Notes: a model not told the origin generated them from the letters alone. DNA of 9,796 bases from Candidatus Auribacterota bacterium (GCA_016932965.1 JAFGBW010000041.1:1-9796); one strand, 5' to 3'; positions 1-9,796 are shown, counted from the first letter of the stretch. Numbers and translations: made by a program.

Positions 1-1183
1 AGCCAAAGGGTGCCAAAAACGGGTCTGCGATTTTCCAGGTACCTTCTTTAAAGGGATTTCTGTAAAAAGCATTCAAAGGACCGTTTGTGGGATCTAAAAA
101 CAACATCTCTATTACCCGATTGACTGCTTCCGGAGTGTTATCAATCAATATGTCTGAAATCAGCTTTTTCATGCTCATACGGACAACAATTCCGTCATTT
201 TCAAATCGCATGATAGAAGAAGGTGGAATTGTTCTGGTTTCATAGGGAGAAAGGGAGCGGCTTATGACATATTTCCAGAATTCAGGACGTTCTTTGCAGT
301 ACACCGCAATCACCATGGTCACTATCGAAGGGTCCGGTTCAGAAAAATCAGACTCTTCCATGTCCTGTAAGGCAAGAAAAGTTTTATGCTCATATGTTTG
401 TACCTGGGGATCATACGCTGCATATTCCCTTCGAAAACTATCTCTAAAGGATGGGTTTGCCCTGATCAGCCTTGCAATAAAACGGAATTGATTGTTGATT
501 GCTTCAACCTCCTCCCAGGTACTCAGGTGAACAAAGGACATGATCGCTTTATTTCTTAATTCAACTAGAGTCGGATCCAAAGTGTGGGCCAGGGGCATAA
601 TGAATTTTCGAAGATTGTCTTCAGCCTTGTGATAATGAGCCTGGTTCCCGTGCGTGATCTCATGAATCAGGAACGTGGTTTTTCTTAACGGACCGATTTT
701 GTTTGCGCTATATTCATTCACTGAGAAACGGGGTCTGAGGCTGGTATCAAAAGTAACTAAATAACGATAAGGGGATACCGGATCGGAAAAAAAATCCACG
801 GCAATTCTCTCCTTGGTGATCCCGTCTTTGAAAGCCTGTAATTTCAAAGTTTCCTCAGAAGTGCCGGTTTTTTCATCAGCTATCTTTGAAAGTTCAATTG
901 CCGCGTCTATATCATCCAGTAGACCCTGCAGCTTATTCTGACGGCTTATCGCAGCTTCTTTCGATGGCTTTTCAAAATCCAATCCAGCATCGGCCTCCGT
1001 GGTCAAAGTGGATACAGTGGATACAGTGGATAGCATGGCCATGGAAATAACCGCATAACGAAACGCATTTTTTCCAGATACGGATTTGAGATGGAAGGAT
1101 GATCTCGGAGCCAGGCATGAAGCAGGTTCACACAAGTGTGCTGATACAATGAAAATGATAAAAATACTGATAATGTTTTTCAT
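1..1183 (-). CDS. Exported HExxH-motif protein, putative zinc metallopeptidase (C-terminus beyond window)
   Basis: Reading the minus strand from the ATG at 1183-1181 gives 394 codons without a stop, so the C-terminus lies left of the window. Residues 1-22 are a short hydrophobic leader (MKNIISIFIIFIVS...), followed by CLAPRS at residues 23-28. A second hydrophobic stretch lies near residues 43-55. Residues 174-178 read HEITH, followed by GNQAHYH: the HExxH zinc-binding signature of gluzincin/metzincin-type proteases. A helix-like stretch with Glu residues at 224, 225 and 227 (TWEEVEAINNQ) lies about 50 residues downstream and could supply a third zinc ligand; that is inference. I do not recognise a named family. 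No good Shine-Dalgarno sequence precedes the ATG (a GGAG lies 16 nt away, too far), so the start is moderately certain. It is transcribed divergently from the gene at 1354, which carries the same LAP motif. A non-catalytic role cannot be excluded. Confidence 0.8.
   Translation of the reverse strand, partial: MKNIISIFIIFIVSAHLCEPASCLAPRSSFHLKSVSGKNAFRYAVISMAMLSTVSTVSTLTTEADAGLDFEKPSKEAAISRQNKLQGLLDDIDAAIELSKIADEKTGTSEETLKLQAFKDGITKERIAVDFFSDPVSPYRYLVTFDTSLRPRFSVNEYSANKIGPLRKTTFLIHEITHGNQAHYHKAEDNLRKFIMPLAHTLDPTLVELRNKAIMSFVHLSTWEEVEAINNQFRFIARLIRANPSFRDSFRREYAAYDPQVQTYEHKTFLALQDMEESDFSEPDPSIVTMVIAVYCKERPEFWKYVISRSLSPYETRTIPPSSIMRFENDGIVVRMSMKKLISDILIDNTPEAVNRVIEMLFLDPTNGPLNAFYRNPFKEGTWKIADPFLAPFG
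1008..1032. repeat. 9-bp tandem repeat inside the metallopeptidase-like gene
   Basis: The unit gtggataca occurs twice and then seven bases of a third copy follow. In the minus-strand protein it encodes Ser-Thr-Val, Ser-Thr-Val, Ser-Thr-Leu near residues 52-59. The period is a multiple of three, so copy-number change would keep the frame. Confidence 0.75.
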
Positions 1184-1233
1184 CAACTGATTTTAAATGC
1201 TCCATGAAAAATTTTAACTGTATATGCGATTAG

Positions 1234-1239
1234 ATTATA
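1234..1239 (-). promoter_or_regulatory. Candidate -10 box for the minus-strand metallopeptidase-like gene
   Basis: A perfect TATAAT on the minus strand, 50-55 bases upstream of the ATG at 1183. The predicted start is near 1227, giving a leader of about 44 nt. No convincing -35 hexamer is seen at 16-18 nt spacing; a run of eight T residues occupies that region. Weak on its own, but the location is sensible. Confidence 0.4.
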
Positions 1240-1290
1240 CCCTATCTGCCTGAAAAAAAACAGTGGGCAATTGAAATTATTACTGAAGAT

Positions 1291-1310
1291 AATAAATAAT
1301 GTTATTTATT
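1291..1310. promoter_or_regulatory. Perfect A/T-only dyad, possible operator
   Basis: AATAAATAA and TTATTTATT are exact reverse complements separated by two bases (tg). The dyad lies between two divergent genes and ends 9 bases before the TTGACA box of the rightward promoter. That position suits an operator for one or both genes, or a binding site for an AT-preferring protein. A chance palindrome in AT-rich DNA is the alternative. Confidence 0.45.
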
Positions 1311-1318
1311 CGTTCGTA

Positions 1319-1347
1319 TTGACAAATATTGTATTTTAGAGTATTAA
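1319..1347 (+). promoter_or_regulatory. Candidate sigma-70 promoter, possibly producing a leaderless mRNA
   Basis: A consensus TTGACA at 1319-1324 is followed after exactly 17 bases by TATTAA at 1342-1347 (four of six match TATAAT). The expected first transcribed base is about 1354, which is the A of the ATG of the next gene. No Shine-Dalgarno sequence lies in front of that ATG, consistent with a leaderless transcript. A perfect TATAAT at 1348-1353 abuts the ATG but sits 23 bases from the -35 box. Confidence 0.5.
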
Positions 1348-1353
1348 TATAAT

Positions 1354-2847
1354 ATGCGTATCAGGATAAATAGCAGTATAGTTAACCTGTTTATGGTTAT
1401 TTTCTGTCTCATTGCCGGAACCGCCTGGAGTTCTGCAAGTCTCTTTCAATATGAATATTCTGCATTAGCCCCCCAATCCCAGGCTGATCCGACGGCATTA
1501 CTCCGGTCCAGGCCCCCAGTCAATGTTAAATCTCTAATGAATATTTTCTGGAATTATTACATCACCCGCAATCCTTCAGATGAAAGGCTGGAACCGGCTT
1601 TACATGAATGCGGGATCACTCTTAAAAAACTGGATGATTTTTTGGATCAGACAACCACCAGTATCGTTCAGCGGGATCTGGAAAATCACGAATTCGAAAA
1701 ATATGATGCGGGTGCGGCAATGCAAGCGTTTTATTCTCCTTCCTTTCCGGGCATCATCCTGAAAACACCCAATCCGAATTTCAGAAATCTAAGGGAACAG
1801 TACAATCTGGCGAAAAAACATCTCAGGGGAATTTTCGCCCCTCTGCTTTTGACCAATGTCTATTTAATGATAGATGGAGAAAAAAAGTATTTTCCTGAAT
1901 TGATCGTACAGACCAAAATCGACAAAACGTATTATGACATGTATTTTGACAAAGATACCGGCGAGCTTCTTCCTTCCATTGAACAGAAAACCCAGGAGGA
2001 AATTGAAGCCGACGTAGAGAGAATAGTTGAGTCTTATATTACTGTGACCCATCATTACTGGGAATTAGGCATCGGGGACAAGGATTTCCTGAACTTCATG
2101 CGGAATTATGGATTCCTTGAGCAGGAGGATGATTCGGTTGAAACACTTGGGATCGATCTGGATGGACTGACTACCGACCGGCAGACGCTTGAAGATCAGC
2201 TTGCAGATCCTGAAGATCCTGATAAAAGACCTGAGAATTCCCCTGCTTTAACCGAGCTTTTGGGTTATTGCAGAGAAGAATTTCAGCAGGAAATGACAGC
2301 CAGATTGAGGGTGGGAATTTCAATTCAGAGCCTTTCCGAGCATTTTCCCGATGAACCGGAGTCCGATTACGTACCCAATCCTCATTTCCCGGGACTGGAT
2401 CAGGTATTGCGCTTAAAACTCGCTGAATTTGTCGAGGATCCTGAACGCTATGATGTCAAAAAATCCTCCACCTCCCCGCAGATCCAGCAGGAACTTACGT
2501 TAATACAGAAAAAAATCCTTCTTATCTTATCGAAGCCGATTTATAATCTTGATCCCAGAAGATTGGTTCAGATAGCCGATGCTGAGGATATCCAGCTCAA
2601 TGAAGAAATGCTGGAAAAAATCAAAAAAAATATTAGTAAGCGGAGATTTGCTGATCTGCACAGGAGGGTTATTGAACAGATTGCATCCGTTGCCATATCG
2701 AAAAGCAAAAGGGACTTCAATATTTTTTCGCATCCCGGTATTTCAGAATTGGTTGAACCAAAAGCATGGAGCTCACTGGATACCATTATTTACGGTGTTT
2801 ACAGGGGCGACTTTAAATCTCTGGCTATGATGCAAAATTCCGCCTGA
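1354..2847 (+). CDS. Exported protein of unknown function with LAPQS motif
   Basis: A 497-residue protein that I do not recognise. Residues 1-7 are basic/polar and 8-28 are hydrophobic, a likely signal peptide with possible cleavage near Ala-Trp-Ser-Ser-Ala (24-28). SALAPQS follows at residues 36-42, matching SCLAPRS in the divergent neighbour. The rest is soluble, rich in Glu, Asp and Leu, and mainly helical-looking, with an acidic Pro-containing loop near residues 287-300. Residues 130-190 loosely resemble a protein-kinase N-lobe: hydrophobics then Lys137 in IILKT, an amphipathic helix, and a hinge-like IVQTKID at 184-190. No HRD or DFG motif follows, so this is at most a degenerate resemblance. 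The start rests on the promoter position rather than a ribosome binding site; Met14 is an alternative but would cut the leader. It converges on the glycosyltransferase gene. Confidence 0.8.
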   Translation: MRIRINSSIVNLFMVIFCLIAGTAWSSASLFQYEYSALAPQSQADPTALLRSRPPVNVKSLMNIFWNYYITRNPSDERLEPALHECGITLKKLDDFLDQTTTSIVQRDLENHEFEKYDAGAAMQAFYSPSFPGIILKTPNPNFRNLREQYNLAKKHLRGIFAPLLLTNVYLMIDGEKKYFPELIVQTKIDKTYYDMYFDKDTGELLPSIEQKTQEEIEADVERIVESYITVTHHYWELGIGDKDFLNFMRNYGFLEQEDDSVETLGIDLDGLTTDRQTLEDQLADPEDPDKRPENSPALTELLGYCREEFQQEMTARLRVGISIQSLSEHFPDEPESDYVPNPHFPGLDQVLRLKLAEFVEDPERYDVKKSSTSPQIQQELTLIQKKILLILSKPIYNLDPRRLVQIADAEDIQLNEEMLEKIKKNISKRRFADLHRRVIEQIASVAISKSKRDFNIFSHPGISELVEPKAWSSLDTIIYGVYRGDFKSLAMMQNSA

Positions 2848-4706: not shown

Positions 4707-7133
4707 ATGGCCGATCAAAACGCGGAAAAAACCTCATCCGGCATTTCGGAGAATAAATCGAAACAGCAGGATCCATCTGTTCACGAAAACAGCGAAGCCA
4801 CTAAAATCCTTGAGGACCCTGAAATAAAAAGAACCGGCCGTGAACGTGACGCGACCCGCACTGCTGTTATCAATAAAGATGAAAAGGAACCCACTGCCTC
4901 AGACGGCCAAATCACGCGTATATCGCCCAGGACAGAAAAGGGCTGGGTCAGTGAACAACTGATCAAAAGCAGAAAAATCCCCTTGTCCCAATCAATCAAA
5001 CGCACTCTTGAAAACGGGCTGAACCGTTTCATAGGCGGCTGCCACTATCACAAGCCATCCTTTGCCTGGATGTTCTGCCTGTTTCTGCTGGTGGTTGTGT
5101 TTTTTATCGCCCCTGTTTTTGACAAATTCGAATGGATCGCCTTTGACCAGATGTTTAAATTCAACAAGCATGTTCCGGTATCCAAAGACATCGTCATCGC
5201 CCAGATCAATGACAATTGCAAGGAGCTATACGGCCGGATGGGCACATGGCCGTGGTCCAGAAAAATTCACGCCTCCATCATAGACAACCTCAATAAATTT
5301 TTTAAACCAAACATGATCGCCATGGATATCCTGTTTATCGGGCCTTCGGCTGACGAGGTTGCCGACATCGCTCTAGCAAAAAAAATCAGGACAGCGGGGA
5401 ATGTTTATCTCCCTCTTTGTTTCAATCTGTCCGCGAAGGAAGAAAAAAGAATAAAGGACCGTATTCAGGGAATGGAAAAACCCCATGAATTATTTCAGAC
5501 CGGAATCAAAGGCACCGGGCATATCAATTATGTTCCTGATAAAGACGGAAAAATCCGGCGTATCCCGCTTTTGATCCCGTACAAAAATCAATTCATACCC
5601 CATCTTGCCTTTCAAATGGCGTTGGACTATCTGGGAGTAAAGATGGAACAGGTGAAAATAGAAAAAGGGCCTTTTGTCTGTTTTACTGATCCAAAAGGGG
5701 CCAGCTATTCGATTCCTGTTGATGATGATTTCCAGATGATCCTTGCCTGGCCCGGTTCATGGGAAAAATCCTTTGATTCCATCTCCTGCATGGATATCAT
5801 CCGCGCTTCCGCCAGCGAACAGCTGGAGGGGGTTGAATCTCTGATCGATCCTGTTCAGTATCAGAACAAAGTCATGATCATCGGGGATACCACCGTGGGG
5901 TCTGTTGATCTGAAACCGACCCCGTTTGATACGCATTGCCCCATGGTCTATTCTTCTGCAACGGTTTTGAACCAGATCATCAATAAAACTTTTATCAGGA
6001 CTCTCTCCAAGAAATTCAGCCTCATCATCTGCTTTCTGCTGGCGGTCATTGTCGGATTATTTGCGATCCATTACAGCCCTTTAAGGGGACTGGTTCTGAC
6101 AGGGCTTGTGTTTATTTTAATTTTATCCGGTTCGATTGTTTTTCTTCTTTATCTACATGTCTGGATCGAAGTCGTAAAACTGCTGTTGACGGTTTCCGTC
6201 ACATTTCTTCTACTGGGGACTTATAGTCACATGCGGTTCAAGGACCATGTGGATTTAAAACTGTCCTTTGAACAAAAGCTGAGCATGGCAGACGCCAACC
6301 TTCCTCAGCTGAAGGCAAACCTGAAAATCGGCAATTATTCCCGTATAACAGAGCTGGGCAGGGGAGGGATGGCGATTGTTTACAAAGGCACGGGAAAAGA
6401 CGGAAAGGAGTATGCAATCAAGGTGATCAATCCAGAATGTCTGGCAAAGGACAAACTTTTCAAATTCCGTTTTAAACGGGAAATTGAAACCATGCGGCGG
6501 GTCGTGCATCCCAATGTGATCAGGATATACGAAAGCTCAAGCTATCAGGGTGTCCTATATTATGCCATGGAGCTCTTTATGGCAGGTGATCTTGCCTCCC
6601 ATATGTCTCAAATCAGCAAAATGACTGATTGGAAATGGATGGCACACCTGTTTATTCAGCTGGCTTCAGGACTAAAGGCCATTCATGATGCCGGCTTGAT
6701 ACACAGGGACATCAAGCCGGCCAATATCATGATGAATGACGAGTACGTTGTGAAAATTGCTGATTTTGGACTGGCAAAGCCTGTTGAAGAGGGGCAAATT
6801 CTTACCACGCTCGGTCAGGTTCTGGGCACGCCGGCTTACCTGGCACCGGAATTGTGCTCGGGTGAAATGCCGGGATTTTCCGCAGATATTTATGCGATGG
6901 GAATCGTCTTTTTTGAAGCAGCTTCGGGCTACCGTCCCTTTCAGGAATGTCTGACCATGGTAGCTCTCATGCAGGCAAAATTAAAAGGCTCCATGCCTTC
7001 TGTCAAGCTCAGAAGGCCTGATTTGCCGGATTTTCTGGCTGGAATAATCGATAAAATGACGGCATTTAAACCACAGGACCGTTATTCAAATTGCGGAGAT
7101 ATCATCAGGGATTTAACGCAGCTTGTTCTGTGA
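4707..7133 (+). CDS. CHASE2-domain transmembrane Ser/Thr protein kinase
   Basis: An 808-residue membrane kinase. Residues 1-115 are a hydrophilic, probably disordered cytoplasmic region rich in Lys, Glu, Ser and Thr. One transmembrane segment (about 119-138) leads into a periplasmic CHASE2 sensor (about 140-432), recognised by its 'IVIAQIND' strand, GTWPWSR at 179-185 and MDILF at 206-210. Three transmembrane segments follow (about 437-456, 463-485 and 489-509). The Hanks-type kinase domain (about 543-805) has a Gly-rich loop LGRGGM (550-555), catalytic Lys572 in AIKVI, HRDIKPAN (666-673), DFG (686-688), APE (713-715) and a DIYAMG helix, so it should be active. The kinase is C-terminal with no extra domain; most CHASE2 proteins I know of carry a cyclase or histidine kinase instead, though Ser/Thr kinase versions exist. 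The ligand is unknown. The next gene on the same strand encodes an exported FecR-domain protein, a plausible signalling partner. Confidence 0.95.
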   Translation: MADQNAEKTSSGISENKSKQQDPSVHENSEATKILEDPEIKRTGRERDATRTAVINKDEKEPTASDGQITRISPRTEKGWVSEQLIKSRKIPLSQSIKRTLENGLNRFIGGCHYHKPSFAWMFCLFLLVVVFFIAPVFDKFEWIAFDQMFKFNKHVPVSKDIVIAQINDNCKELYGRMGTWPWSRKIHASIIDNLNKFFKPNMIAMDILFIGPSADEVADIALAKKIRTAGNVYLPLCFNLSAKEEKRIKDRIQGMEKPHELFQTGIKGTGHINYVPDKDGKIRRIPLLIPYKNQFIPHLAFQMALDYLGVKMEQVKIEKGPFVCFTDPKGASYSIPVDDDFQMILAWPGSWEKSFDSISCMDIIRASASEQLEGVESLIDPVQYQNKVMIIGDTTVGSVDLKPTPFDTHCPMVYSSATVLNQIINKTFIRTLSKKFSLIICFLLAVIVGLFAIHYSPLRGLVLTGLVFILILSGSIVFLLYLHVWIEVVKLLLTVSVTFLLLGTYSHMRFKDHVDLKLSFEQKLSMADANLPQLKANLKIGNYSRITELGRGGMAIVYKGTGKDGKEYAIKVINPECLAKDKLFKFRFKREIETMRRVVHPNVIRIYESSSYQGVLYYAMELFMAGDLASHMSQISKMTDWKWMAHLFIQLASGLKAIHDAGLIHRDIKPANIMMNDEYVVKIADFGLAKPVEEGQILTTLGQVLGTPAYLAPELCSGEMPGFSADIYAMGIVFFEAASGYRPFQECLTMVALMQAKLKGSMPSVKLRRPDLPDFLAGIIDKMTAFKPQDRYSNCGDIIRDLTQLVL

Positions 7134-7362: not shown

Positions 7363-7381
7363 TAATATTTTTGAAATATTA
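7363..7381. promoter_or_regulatory. A/T-only hairpin or dyad upstream of the FecR gene
   Basis: TAATATTT and AAATATTA are perfect reverse complements around the 3-base centre ttg. The dyad overlaps the candidate -35 box of the FecR promoter, so it may be an operator. It is too weak thermodynamically to be a good terminator. Confidence 0.4.
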
Positions 7382-7398
7382 TGTTACGGGGATATTTT
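7371..7398 (+). promoter_or_regulatory. Candidate promoter of the FecR-repeat gene
   Basis: TTGAAA (7371-7376, five of six consensus bases) and TATTTT (7393-7398, four of six) are spaced by 16 bases. The predicted start near 7405 gives a leader of about 29 nt that contains the ribosome binding site. In such AT-rich DNA other -10-like boxes exist, including TATATT near 7335. Confidence 0.35.
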
Positions 7399-7418
7399 TA
7401 ATAACTGAAGCCATTCAT

Positions 7419-7425
7419 AAAGGAG
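7419..7425 (+). promoter_or_regulatory. Strong ribosome binding site of the FecR-repeat gene
   Basis: AAAGGAG lies 8 bases before the ATG at 7434, the best Shine-Dalgarno match in the window. It fixes the start of a gene whose end is outside the window. Confidence 0.85.
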
Positions 7426-7433
7426 ACTTAATT

Positions 7434-9796
7434 ATGGCTCATGTGATAAAAAAACTCGTCACATTTTTTCTGTCCCTTTTTCTATTTTTTCTTTCCTTTT
7501 CAATCTGTATTTCTTCCGGAACAAAACATCCTTCAATCGAATTAAAAAAGAAATCCCCGCTAGATTCATCCATCCTTTCAGTCAGGGAAAAGTTACCCCT
7601 TCTTTACGGAAGGGAATTCAAAGACGCATTCAACAAACTGATTTCGCTTCATAAAAAACGCGTCAAACTGGATACGACAGATAAAAGTGCAAAATGGTCA
7701 TTCATTGAAGATGATTTAAAATGGGGAAACGGTTCCTATGCGATCTTTCTTCTTAAAGAAATGAAAACCAATCAGGCCCTGCTTCAGTTGATTGATCTCA
7801 ACCTGGATCTGAAAAGAACCGGAAAAACAATCCGCCTGAAACGCCTGACTTTCAATCCGTTTCTTGTCCTGGCGGACATGATGTCAGGAAGAAATAAATA
7901 TACTTTTAAAAAGGAAAATGCCACGCCCCTCATTTCTTCAATAAACCGACCGGGTTTGACCGAAAATGAAAAAAGGATTCTTGCCGGCATGGAATCGAAA
8001 TTACGGCCGGCCGGACCTGTTAAAAAACCGGCTCCTCCCGCTTTTGTTCCTTCAGAAAGAGGAAAAGAAAACATGCGTACTGCCAGGCCGGCAGCTGTCT
8101 TATCCGAAAAAAAGACCCTTCCCGAGCCCGCCCGGCTTACACCGGCAGTAAAACCAATCGATACTCATTCAAAAAAAATATCCATCGAGGAATTTGTAAG
8201 CCAAAACCAGAAACAAAAGGTGTCAAAAAAGCCGGAAGAAAAGCCCATTGTCATTCCGTCTGAAAAAAAGGCTGCGACGGATGAAATAAAAACAGAGATA
8301 GAACCATCTGCGGAAGTAGTAAAAGAACCTATCAGGCAATCCGAAGAAAAATATTATTGGGAAATCGTCAAGGTCATTAAAAATGTCCGGGTCAGGCGTG
8401 CTGATGAAGAAGGGTGGAGCGTCATGGCTCCGGGAGATAAAATATTCGAAGGCGACACATTGAAAACCGGATCAAAATCAAGCGTCACTATTTTAATAAG
8501 AGGTCTGGATAACAAGGACTCCTATTCGCAGTTGTTTGAAAATTCGGAACTAAAAGTAATCCGCCTCTCAAAGAAAAACATCATGGAACTCCCTGAAGTA
8601 TACATGGATTTAATCCTGGGTGAGGTGTTCGTGAACGTGGAGGGACTGCCGGCCCATTCCAGTTTCAAGGTAAAAACTCCAACGCTTGTCGCCGGTATCC
8701 GCGGGACCACGTTCAGCGTCAAGACCCTGTCGGACAAAATAGCCCAGATCCTGGTTTTTAAAGGGATCGTCGGAGTGACCCAGCAGACTCTGACCGGATT
8801 CATTGAATTAAACATCAAAACAGGTGAAGAACTGCTGAATGATCTGTCCGGTAAAAAGAAAAATTCGCTTAAAAAAATAGATGAAGCCACGCTCCTGGAA
8901 TATCAGATGAAGGCGCAGGAAATAGCTCAAATCATTATCGACTCTCTTTCCGGGGGAGAAAAGTATTTAGGAGATCAAAAGAGTGACGAAGATGGGAAAA
9001 AAACCGGACCCGATGGTCCGGATGACGGCCAGGACGGATTAGGCAAGGAACAATGGAAAACACAAGGTCCTTTAGTGGACCCCGAAACAGGCCAATTATT
9101 CAATCCAGATGGGACTCCCGTACTCGATATGAAAGGGAACCCGGTCTATTATGGTCCGAATGGTCCGGTGGACGCTAACGGCAATCCGGTCTATCTGCCT
9201 CCGCCTCTTAAAGTGGATCCCAATACAGGGCAAATGTATAATCCGGACGGGAGTCCTGTGATTACGCCTGATGGAAGGCTGGTTTATATGGGGGATAATG
9301 GACAGATGGTGGATACAAACGGCAACCCGGTGTATCTGCCTCCGCCAGACAGCACTCAATATATGCCGCCTCCCAAGGTCGATCCTGATACTGGGCAGTT
9401 ATTGGATCCCTATTCAGGGAAACCCATATTGGATCCCAACGGGAATCCCGTGTATTACAGTCCGAACGGACCGGTGGATGCCGACGGCAACCCGGTCTAT
9501 CTTCCCCAGCCTGAAAACACGCAACGAACTGCCCTGCCGCCCAAGGTGGATCCTGAAACAGGTCAGCTAATAGATCCTAATTCAGGGAAACCCATACTGG
9601 ATGAAACCGGCAACCCGGTCTATTACAGCCCGACAGGACCGGTGGATGCCGACGGCAACCCGGTCTATCTTCCCCAGCCTGAAAACACGCAAGGAACTGC
9701 CCTGCCGCCCAAGGTGGATCCTGAAACAGGTCAGCTAATAGATCCTAATTCCGGGAAACCCATATTGGATCCCAACGGGAATCCCGTGTATTACAG
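7434..9796 (+). CDS. Exported FecR-domain protein with C-terminal tandem repeats (C-terminus beyond window)
   Basis: Open from the ATG through the right edge: 787 codons and no stop. Residues 1-28 are a signal peptide (MAHVIKKL, then a Phe/Leu/Ser-rich core); the Cys near its end lacks a proper lipobox, so a lipoprotein is unlikely. Residues 40-165 form a domain I do not recognise. Residues 180-305 are a Lys/Pro/Glu-rich linker like those that span the periplasm. The FecR domain runs from about Trp309 to 455, with the hallmark TPTLVAGIRGTTF around residues 415-427. An acidic, Gly-rich stretch (about 510-545) leads to the repeat array from residue 548. In classical FecR the domain signals from an outer-membrane transporter to a sigma factor. 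Here there is no anti-sigma N-terminal region and no FecI-like gene in view, so the domain is probably structural or sensory. The preceding same-strand gene is the CHASE2 kinase. Confidence 0.9.
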   Translation, partial: MAHVIKKLVTFFLSLFLFFLSFSICISSGTKHPSIELKKKSPLDSSILSVREKLPLLYGREFKDAFNKLISLHKKRVKLDTTDKSAKWSFIEDDLKWGNGSYAIFLLKEMKTNQALLQLIDLNLDLKRTGKTIRLKRLTFNPFLVLADMMSGRNKYTFKKENATPLISSINRPGLTENEKRILAGMESKLRPAGPVKKPAPPAFVPSERGKENMRTARPAAVLSEKKTLPEPARLTPAVKPIDTHSKKISIEEFVSQNQKQKVSKKPEEKPIVIPSEKKAATDEIKTEIEPSAEVVKEPIRQSEEKYYWEIVKVIKNVRVRRADEEGWSVMAPGDKIFEGDTLKTGSKSSVTILIRGLDNKDSYSQLFENSELKVIRLSKKNIMELPEVYMDLILGEVFVNVEGLPAHSSFKVKTPTLVAGIRGTTFSVKTLSDKIAQILVFKGIVGVTQQTLTGFIELNIKTGEELLNDLSGKKKNSLKKIDEATLLEYQMKAQEIAQIIIDSLSGGEKYLGDQKSDEDGKKTGPDGPDDGQDGLGKEQWKTQGPLVDPETGQLFNPDGTPVLDMKGNPVYYGPNGPVDANGNPVYLPPPLKVDPNTGQMYNPDGSPVITPDGRLVYMGDNGQMVDTNGNPVYLPPPDSTQYMPPPKVDPDTGQLLDPYSGKPILDPNGNPVYYSPNGPVDADGNPVYLPQPENTQRTALPPKVDPETGQLIDPNSGKPILDETGNPVYYSPTGPVDADGNPVYLPQPENTQGTALPPKVDPETGQLIDPNSGKPILDPNGNPVYY
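9075..9796 (+). repeat. Tandem in-frame repeat array, 168-bp unit, five copies seen
   Basis: Units begin at 9075 (46 residues), 9213 (55), 9378 (56), 9546 (56) and 9714 (cut by the window edge). The consensus opens VDPETGQL, continues through SGKPILD and GNPVYY, then PVDADGNPVYLP, and ends in a Pro-rich linker PPK. The first two units are divergent; units 3-5 are close to identical in DNA. Positions 9468-9596 match 9636-9764 with two mismatches, while 9417-9460 match 9753-9796 exactly at an offset of 336 bp. Each unit contains smaller echoes of a D-x-x-G-x-P-[VI] motif. All units stay in frame, so this is a protein repeat and not a CRISPR array. Confidence 0.95.

Follow-up and report, generated by a model that had tools for sequence, protein, structure and literature searches.

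The window analyzed here is a 9,796-nucleotide stretch (JAFGBW010000041.1:1-9796) from a Candidatus Auribacterota bacterium (GCA_016932965.1), which makes up contig 96 of a 3.14 Mb draft genome of 300 contigs (G000). It carries two divergent genes for exported proteins, both with a short motif behind the N-terminal leader that we call the N-terminal tag, or LAPxS. The minus-strand gene (1..1183, -) begins with the ATG at 1183 and encodes at least 394 residues, its C-terminus lying beyond the contig end. Its product has the sequence SCLAPRS at residues 22-28 (1100..1120, -) and, within the stretch HEITHGNQAH, an HExxH motif (HEITH, residues 174-178; 650..664, -) that marks it as a putative zinc metallopeptidase. 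The plus-strand open reading frame (ORF; 1354..2847, +) encodes 497 residues, with SALAPQS at residues 36-42 (1459..1479, +) and a C-terminal Asn-Ser-Ala-COOH (2836..2844, +) followed by the TGA stop. It is preceded by the promoter TTGAC-N16-AGTAT (1319..1344, +), in which TTGAC starts 35 nt 5' of the ATG. The plus-strand gene therefore has all three features described below: the N-terminal tag, a C-terminal tag, and the promoter.

The first-pass annotation had placed both motifs correctly and had described the two proteins as otherwise unrelated, in agreement with their having no family in common. Its statement that the motif stands directly behind the leader applies to the minus-strand protein and fails for the plus-strand protein, where the motif lies about nine residues past the best predicted signal-peptidase site. 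Neither tagged protein of the window matched a family in Pfam, NCBIfam, PADLOC, or PHROGs, and neither has a second copy in its own genome. Comparison with viral contigs, plasmids (minus-strand protein only), and PDB sequences gave nothing significant. AlphaFold models built without an alignment had predicted local distance difference test (pLDDT) values of 38 and 35, too low for the models to be of use. A faint kinase-like pattern, GDKDFLNF...IDLDG, seen by eye in the plus-strand protein was not confirmed.

The N-terminal tag recurs behind leaders across the genome

In total, 1.13 Mb of the genome was read as stretches, 36% of this one draft. ORFs were called with a plain caller, and leaders were assigned with a simple detector based on hydrophobicity; the first 0.92 Mb yielded 247 leader ORFs and 514 non-leader ORFs. 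As a control, residues 15-55 were permuted in 2000 shuffles. Within these residues LAP occurred in 29 leader ORFs, compared with 5/514 non-leader ORFs and a shuffle mean of 3.8 (maximum 11). Of the longer forms, LAP.S was present in 17 leader ORFs (shuffle 0.35, maximum 4) and [CSA]LAP.S in 7 (shuffle 0.06, maximum 2). The permuted triplets LPA, ALP, APL, PAL, and PLA were found in only 1 to 8 leader ORFs each. When all trimers behind leaders were ranked, LAP showed the highest enrichment (z 12.7), with CLA next. The first 20 stretches had been partly picked for matches to a DNA pattern, which is why the "blind" contigs, chosen regardless of the motif, matter; there, LAP.S was found in 8/148 leader ORFs, against 0.18 expected from shuffling. 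The block C100-C120 is poor in the motif (LAP in 1/52 leader ORFs, LAP.S in 0/52), so the members are unevenly spread and the distribution is patchy.

The tagged set used for all later tests was fixed by the N-terminal motif alone and comprises 40 ORFs (37 of at least 150 residues) from the 1.13 Mb. Four weak matches with other explanations were dropped, and a few members with a leader just below threshold were added by hand since the full motif was present. These ORFs represent about 36 unrelated families and carry an L-[A/S]-P-x-[S/T]-like tag 0 to 19 residues past the likely signal-peptidase site. Substitution counts show L and P to be almost fixed; the residue that separates them is A or S, and the fifth is S or T. 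Clear kinship within the set is confined to three dikinase-related proteins; in the two that are paralogous dikinases, LAPSHS is invariant although the leaders diverge. By a permissive and crude score, all 40 have a signal-peptidase-like site ahead of the tag, at a median distance of 6 residues. The tag falls within one residue of the best such site in only 7/40.

The tagged proteins share a C-terminus and a promoter

Tagged proteins with a visible stop codon end in [ASG]A-COOH in 19/35 cases, compared with 2/247 untagged leader ORFs and 12/584 other ORFs (p 5e-18). The typical C-terminus is (S/T)(S/A)A, and several of the rest end in SS, AS, or SG. The blind contigs gave the same picture (7/18 tagged versus 2/171; p 7e-7). 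The codons that encode the C-terminal tag vary and all three stop codons are used, which argues for selection at the protein level. A further membrane segment is lacking in 37/40 tagged proteins.

The upstream regions are shared as well. Searching 200 bp upstream of each gene for TTGAC-N14-19-[AG]GTA found this promoter 5' of 18/40 tagged genes and 8/841 other genes, with a spacing sharply at 15 to 16 (TTGAC-N15/16-[A/G]GTA); in the blind contigs the counts were 9/20 and 3/182 (p 2e-8). Tagged genes with the promoter include the plus-strand gene of the window and genes in L034, L043, L048, L081, L089, and L092, among others. Four untagged leader genes also have it, two of which prove to be members whose tags are altered (CLAQKS...SAA and LGPLS...RAS). 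In six tagged genes the promoter starts just 28 to 35 nt 5' of the start codon, and a Shine-Dalgarno stretch precedes only 4/40 tagged genes, versus 224/889 others. The short distance from promoter to start codon suggests leaderless transcripts. Tagged genes are mostly single, with 5/35 in an operon-like arrangement compared with 360/789 of the others. Adjacent tagged pairs nevertheless number 8, against 1.5 expected. On the 12 kb contig L034 (G000:C2), 6/7 genes are tagged, on both strands. A leaderless response-regulator-like gene at L052:423-1145 (+), on a contig that also carries a tagged methyltransferase, is preceded by the regulon promoter at a distance of 32 nt; it is a possible regulator.

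The proposal that the motif serves in sorting or processing and is no coincidence is supported by its recurrence behind leaders genome-wide, in some 36 unrelated families, together with the shared C-terminal signature and promoter. The comparison with a shuffled control that had been suggested as a means of refuting it, run on the 247 leader ORFs, placed the motif far above chance. Because the tagged set also shares the C-terminal signature and the promoter, neither chance nor common descent of the proteins accounts for it.

The tag signal is most likely lineage specific

An unanchored DNA pattern for LAP.S barely exceeds its reversed-pattern control (170 versus 139). A pattern anchored at the start codon was judged by its rate over the 44 genomes of the phylum, its own reversed control (39 versus 2) being considered misleading. 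By this measure G000 is the highest of the 44 (39/170 versus 690/5772 pooled; Fisher p 6e-5) and the only one with a clear tag signal. In a 338 kb sample of a genome of the same order, LAP was found in 0/86 leader proteins. A search of other genomes' contigs turned up no relatives of the plus-strand window protein or of the tagged dikinases. The signal is most likely lineage specific. The name LAPxS had no relevant earlier use in the literature, as judged from open papers.

Cargo and composition of the tagged proteins

Among the recognizable tagged proteins are protein kinases, a GH116 protein, and two glucan water dikinases, enzymes familiar chiefly from eukaryotes that store starch; an Ig-like N-terminal dikinase domain occurs in a further, separate tagged protein. 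The set further contains a radical S-adenosylmethionine (radical-SAM) protein, an isochorismatase-family hydrolase, an Orn/Lys/Arg decarboxylase-like protein of the pyridoxal phosphate (PLP) type, a methyltransferase-like protein, a B12-binding radical-SAM protein, an aldose epimerase, a uridine kinase-CYTH fusion, and several HExxH proteins. Catalytic motifs are retained in the tagged proteins checked. The radical-SAM protein (L034:5206-6309, -), which has a leader and both tags, is similar to RlmN/Cfr in its catalytic half (79 bits against TIGR00048, under the cut-off of 290) and retains CxxxCxxC and the C-terminal Cys. The genome also has an RlmN-like protein without leader or tag (L049:2870-3916, +), just under the same cut-off at 258 bits, which is probably its ordinary RlmN. 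The exported, tagged dikinase proteins, assigned by family matches (L043:301-5340, + and L092:682-4022, +), are without full-length relatives in any of the phylum's 43 other genomes. Two relatives, G024:C274 and G005:C45, have very long frames (5103 and 4024 residues) with a PPDK-like ATP-binding domain. The tagged orphans matched no anti-phage or phage family. The 37 untagged exported proteins sampled (TonB receptors, TPR, CsgG, HlyD, and OEP proteins, binding proteins, and the like) look like an ordinary envelope complement.

Composition supports the export of the tagged set. Cysteine makes up 0.68% of tagged proteins, close to the 0.65% of untagged exported proteins and below the level of cytosolic ones (1.32%; p 1e-4). 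Since this content is exported-like, the leaders are probably genuine export signals and the tagged proteins probably leave the cytoplasm. The N-terminal tag, the C-terminal tag, and the promoter thus coincide on unrelated proteins that are as poor in cysteine as exported proteins. Tagged proteins are also poor in lysine (5.6% versus 7.8%, p 6e-8) and rich in arginine (6.2% versus 4.5%), a shift that exceeds the effect of base composition (t -4.8). Toxin subunits that reach the eukaryotic cytosol are known for a strong bias of arginine over lysine (PMC6471375); the bias seen here is no more than suggestive.

A proposed two-ended signal and the likely destination of the cargo

The tagged set itself is firmly supported; for its destination and receptor we infer what follows. 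The layout is that of a protein-level signal marked at both ends, in which a Sec-type signal peptide would be followed by L-[A/S]-P-x-[S/T] near the mature N-terminus and the protein would close with a small-residue C-terminus, typically (S/T)(S/A)A-COOH. Extrapolation puts the coregulated set at roughly 70 to 100 proteins, many of them from single genes behind the TTGAC-N15/16-[A/G]GTA promoter. We give an even chance to the proposal that this signal sorts a coregulated secretome, most likely into the interior of another cell, which could be a host or prey. Sec would move the tagged proteins across the inner membrane, and signal peptidase, as expected from Sec biology, would cut the leader upstream of the tag and leave LAPxS close to the new N-terminus. 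A dedicated receptor or protease may then recognize L[AS]PxS and pass the proteins out of the cell, with the C-terminal tail acting as a second docking site or as a degron that clears strays. The interior of another cell is the likeliest destination because the recognizable cargo depends on ATP, on SAM together with an Fe-S cluster, on B12, or on PLP, and because it includes a relative of the RlmN-like RNA methyltransferases. We know of no cofactor supply outside the cytoplasm for kinases and for radical-SAM, B12, and PLP enzymes. Rather more tentatively, these would be cytosolic-type enzymes exported by Sec, marked at both ends, expressed from a dedicated promoter, and carried by a second translocation step into another cell's cytoplasm, where the kinases, radical-SAM enzymes, and glucan dikinases would remodel that cell, an arrangement unlike any described system.

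Several observations weigh against this proposal. The strict C-terminal tag or the promoter is missing in about half of the tagged proteins. Cargo activity is read from families and motifs, with several matches under curated cut-offs, and the destination in another cell is argued from cofactor needs and from lysine depletion, the latter having other possible causes. No receptor, protease, or outer-membrane translocon for the tag was identified. The genome's single match to FHIPEP, the type III export gate family, has a counterpart in each of two relatives of the order and is probably flagellar. No ATP/ADP translocase was found in the genome, which thus gives no sign of energy parasitism.

Other parts of the export machinery can be placed beside these. 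Five secretins are encoded in G000, equal to the number in its relatives. The canonical signal peptidase I family PF10502 was not found in this genome (92.6% complete), though it is present in 40/44 genomes of the phylum; incompleteness could explain the gap. A weak signal-peptidase match (27 bits to TIGR02227; G000:C43:37044-37229) lies in an ORF of 164 residues that is a first candidate for a changed processing enzyme. An exosortase (PF09721, 188 bits) is encoded at G000:C157:2474-3232; G001, in whose sample the tag is missing, encodes a weaker one.

Alternative explanations

The ALTERNATIVES readings excluded or weakened here are contamination, algal plastid genes, shared ancestry, and chance. 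A short match in just two proteins is weak evidence at face value, but chance resemblance is refuted by the genome-wide excess of the motif relative to shuffled sequences, to permuted triplets, and to non-leader proteins and by two independent shared features. Shared ancestry was rejected since the families are unrelated, and contamination of the bin since the tag-bearing contigs have the same guanine-plus-cytosine (GC) content and tetranucleotides as the rest. It is also very improbable that the contigs derive from an alga bearing complex plastids and that the motif is the ASAFAP plastid-targeting motif. The superficial likeness of a signal peptide followed by FAP or LAP (PMC4329603) and the glucan water dikinases in the tagged set would speak for an alga. 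The tag, however, lies 0 to 19 residues past the cleavage site, whereas ASAFAP spans that site and has no C-terminal tag, and the promoter is of bacterial form, the genes are tightly packed and intronless, and the composition is that of the bacterial bin. Bacterial genes adjoin the tagged ones in the window itself: a CHASE2-serine/threonine kinase (4707-7133, +), followed by a FecR-domain protein (7371-9794, +) with a C-terminal repeat array of the type KVDPETGQLIDPNSGKPILDPNGNPVYY, both without the tag.

The main rival, which we consider unlikely but by some way the strongest, is that tagged proteins go no further than the periplasm or the surface of the cell that makes them, with L[AS]PxS serving as a docking or maturation signal for envelope retention and the cargo acting on surface proteins and on extracellular or storage glucans instead of inside another cell. 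It would suit the glucan water dikinases, the GH116 enzyme, the aldose epimerase, and the HExxH proteins, and is compatible with the exported-like cysteine content and with the failure to find a host-dependence marker. The protein kinases, the radical-SAM and RlmN-like proteins, the uridine kinase-CYTH fusion, and the PLP decarboxylase fit it poorly, being without a known extracytoplasmic source of cofactors, and proteins that mostly have no further membrane segment have no obvious anchor. It is improbable that the tags instead set protein lifetime, with the tail a degron for a protease of the Prc/Tsp/CtpA or ClpXP type, LAPxS a processing site, and the whole a burst of enzyme quickly cleared. 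A common promoter on mostly single genes agrees with such a burst, which leaves the signal peptides, the N-terminal tag, and the cytosolic-type cargo unexplained; transfer-messenger RNA (tmRNA) is absent from the stretches read, so the organism's own tag peptide offers no comparison. Slightly less probable still is that the tagged genes are islands acquired laterally from a single donor lineage, with a sorting system that is inactive here. Their clustering, both in adjacent pairs and on C2, and the absence of the tag from the sample of the nearest relative examined would be expected of islands. Against this, GC and tetranucleotide composition match the rest of the bin, many tagged genes stand singly on ordinary contigs, and both tags and the promoter are intact over unrelated families, with catalytic motifs kept where checked.

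Relation to known sorting signals

The closest parallels come from other export systems. The PEXEL/HT motif (RxLxE/Q/D) of Plasmodium is a short motif that follows a hydrophobic export signal, by some residues, in a large set of otherwise unrelated exported proteins and is cleaved by plasmepsin V (PMC10653839, PMC3567231). The position behind an export signal on many unrelated proteins is common to both, but PEXEL belongs to a eukaryotic parasite, differs from L-[A/S]-P-x-[S/T], and has neither a C-terminal half nor a shared promoter; it is tied to a dedicated aspartic protease and delivery to the host cell, whereas the present tag is known from sequence alone. ASAFAP resembles the tag in placing an aromatic residue or Leu before Ala-Pro just behind a signal peptide and directs proteins across further membranes (PMC4329603). 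It differs in belonging to eukaryotic nuclear genes and in being followed by a transit peptide. The PEP-CTERM/exosortase system likewise has a genome-specific tag on many unrelated exported proteins and was first found by sequence statistics (PMC1569441). This genome does encode an exosortase, but a PEP-CTERM signal has a PEP-like motif, a membrane helix, and a basic end at the C-terminus, whereas the tagged proteins have soluble (S/T)(S/A)A-type tails. With no helix at their C-termini and further membrane segments so rare, they were rejected as PEP-CTERM substrates. SsrA-like and Prc/Tsp tails share small nonpolar C-terminal residues (PMC5686067), a resemblance of sequence; here the tail is genome encoded and occurs together with a signal peptide and the N-terminal tag.

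Two simpler identities for the N-terminal tag were also rejected. A lipobox, L-[AS]-[GA]-C, does not account for it: Cys stands directly before the tag in only about 9/40, and no shared lipobox was seen. Nor is it the signal peptidase I site itself (A-x-A, +1 not Pro), as a cut after L-A would put Pro at +1 and candidate sites lie upstream in every member. The two-ended tag system looks to be previously undescribed.

Short sorting signals, such as those of PEP-CTERM and PEXEL, have repeatedly exposed whole export systems. Here, sequence by itself was enough for a tag to define a coregulated secretome of an uncultivated lineage, and the signature of N-terminal tag, C-terminal tag, and promoter can be used for scanning further genomes. 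The surprise lies in the cargo, which places export signals on enzymes that require ATP, SAM, B12, or PLP. If these enzymes do act in another cell, the tag would amount to a list of candidate effectors for an uncultured lineage, and the effect of these cells on their neighbors would become a testable question.

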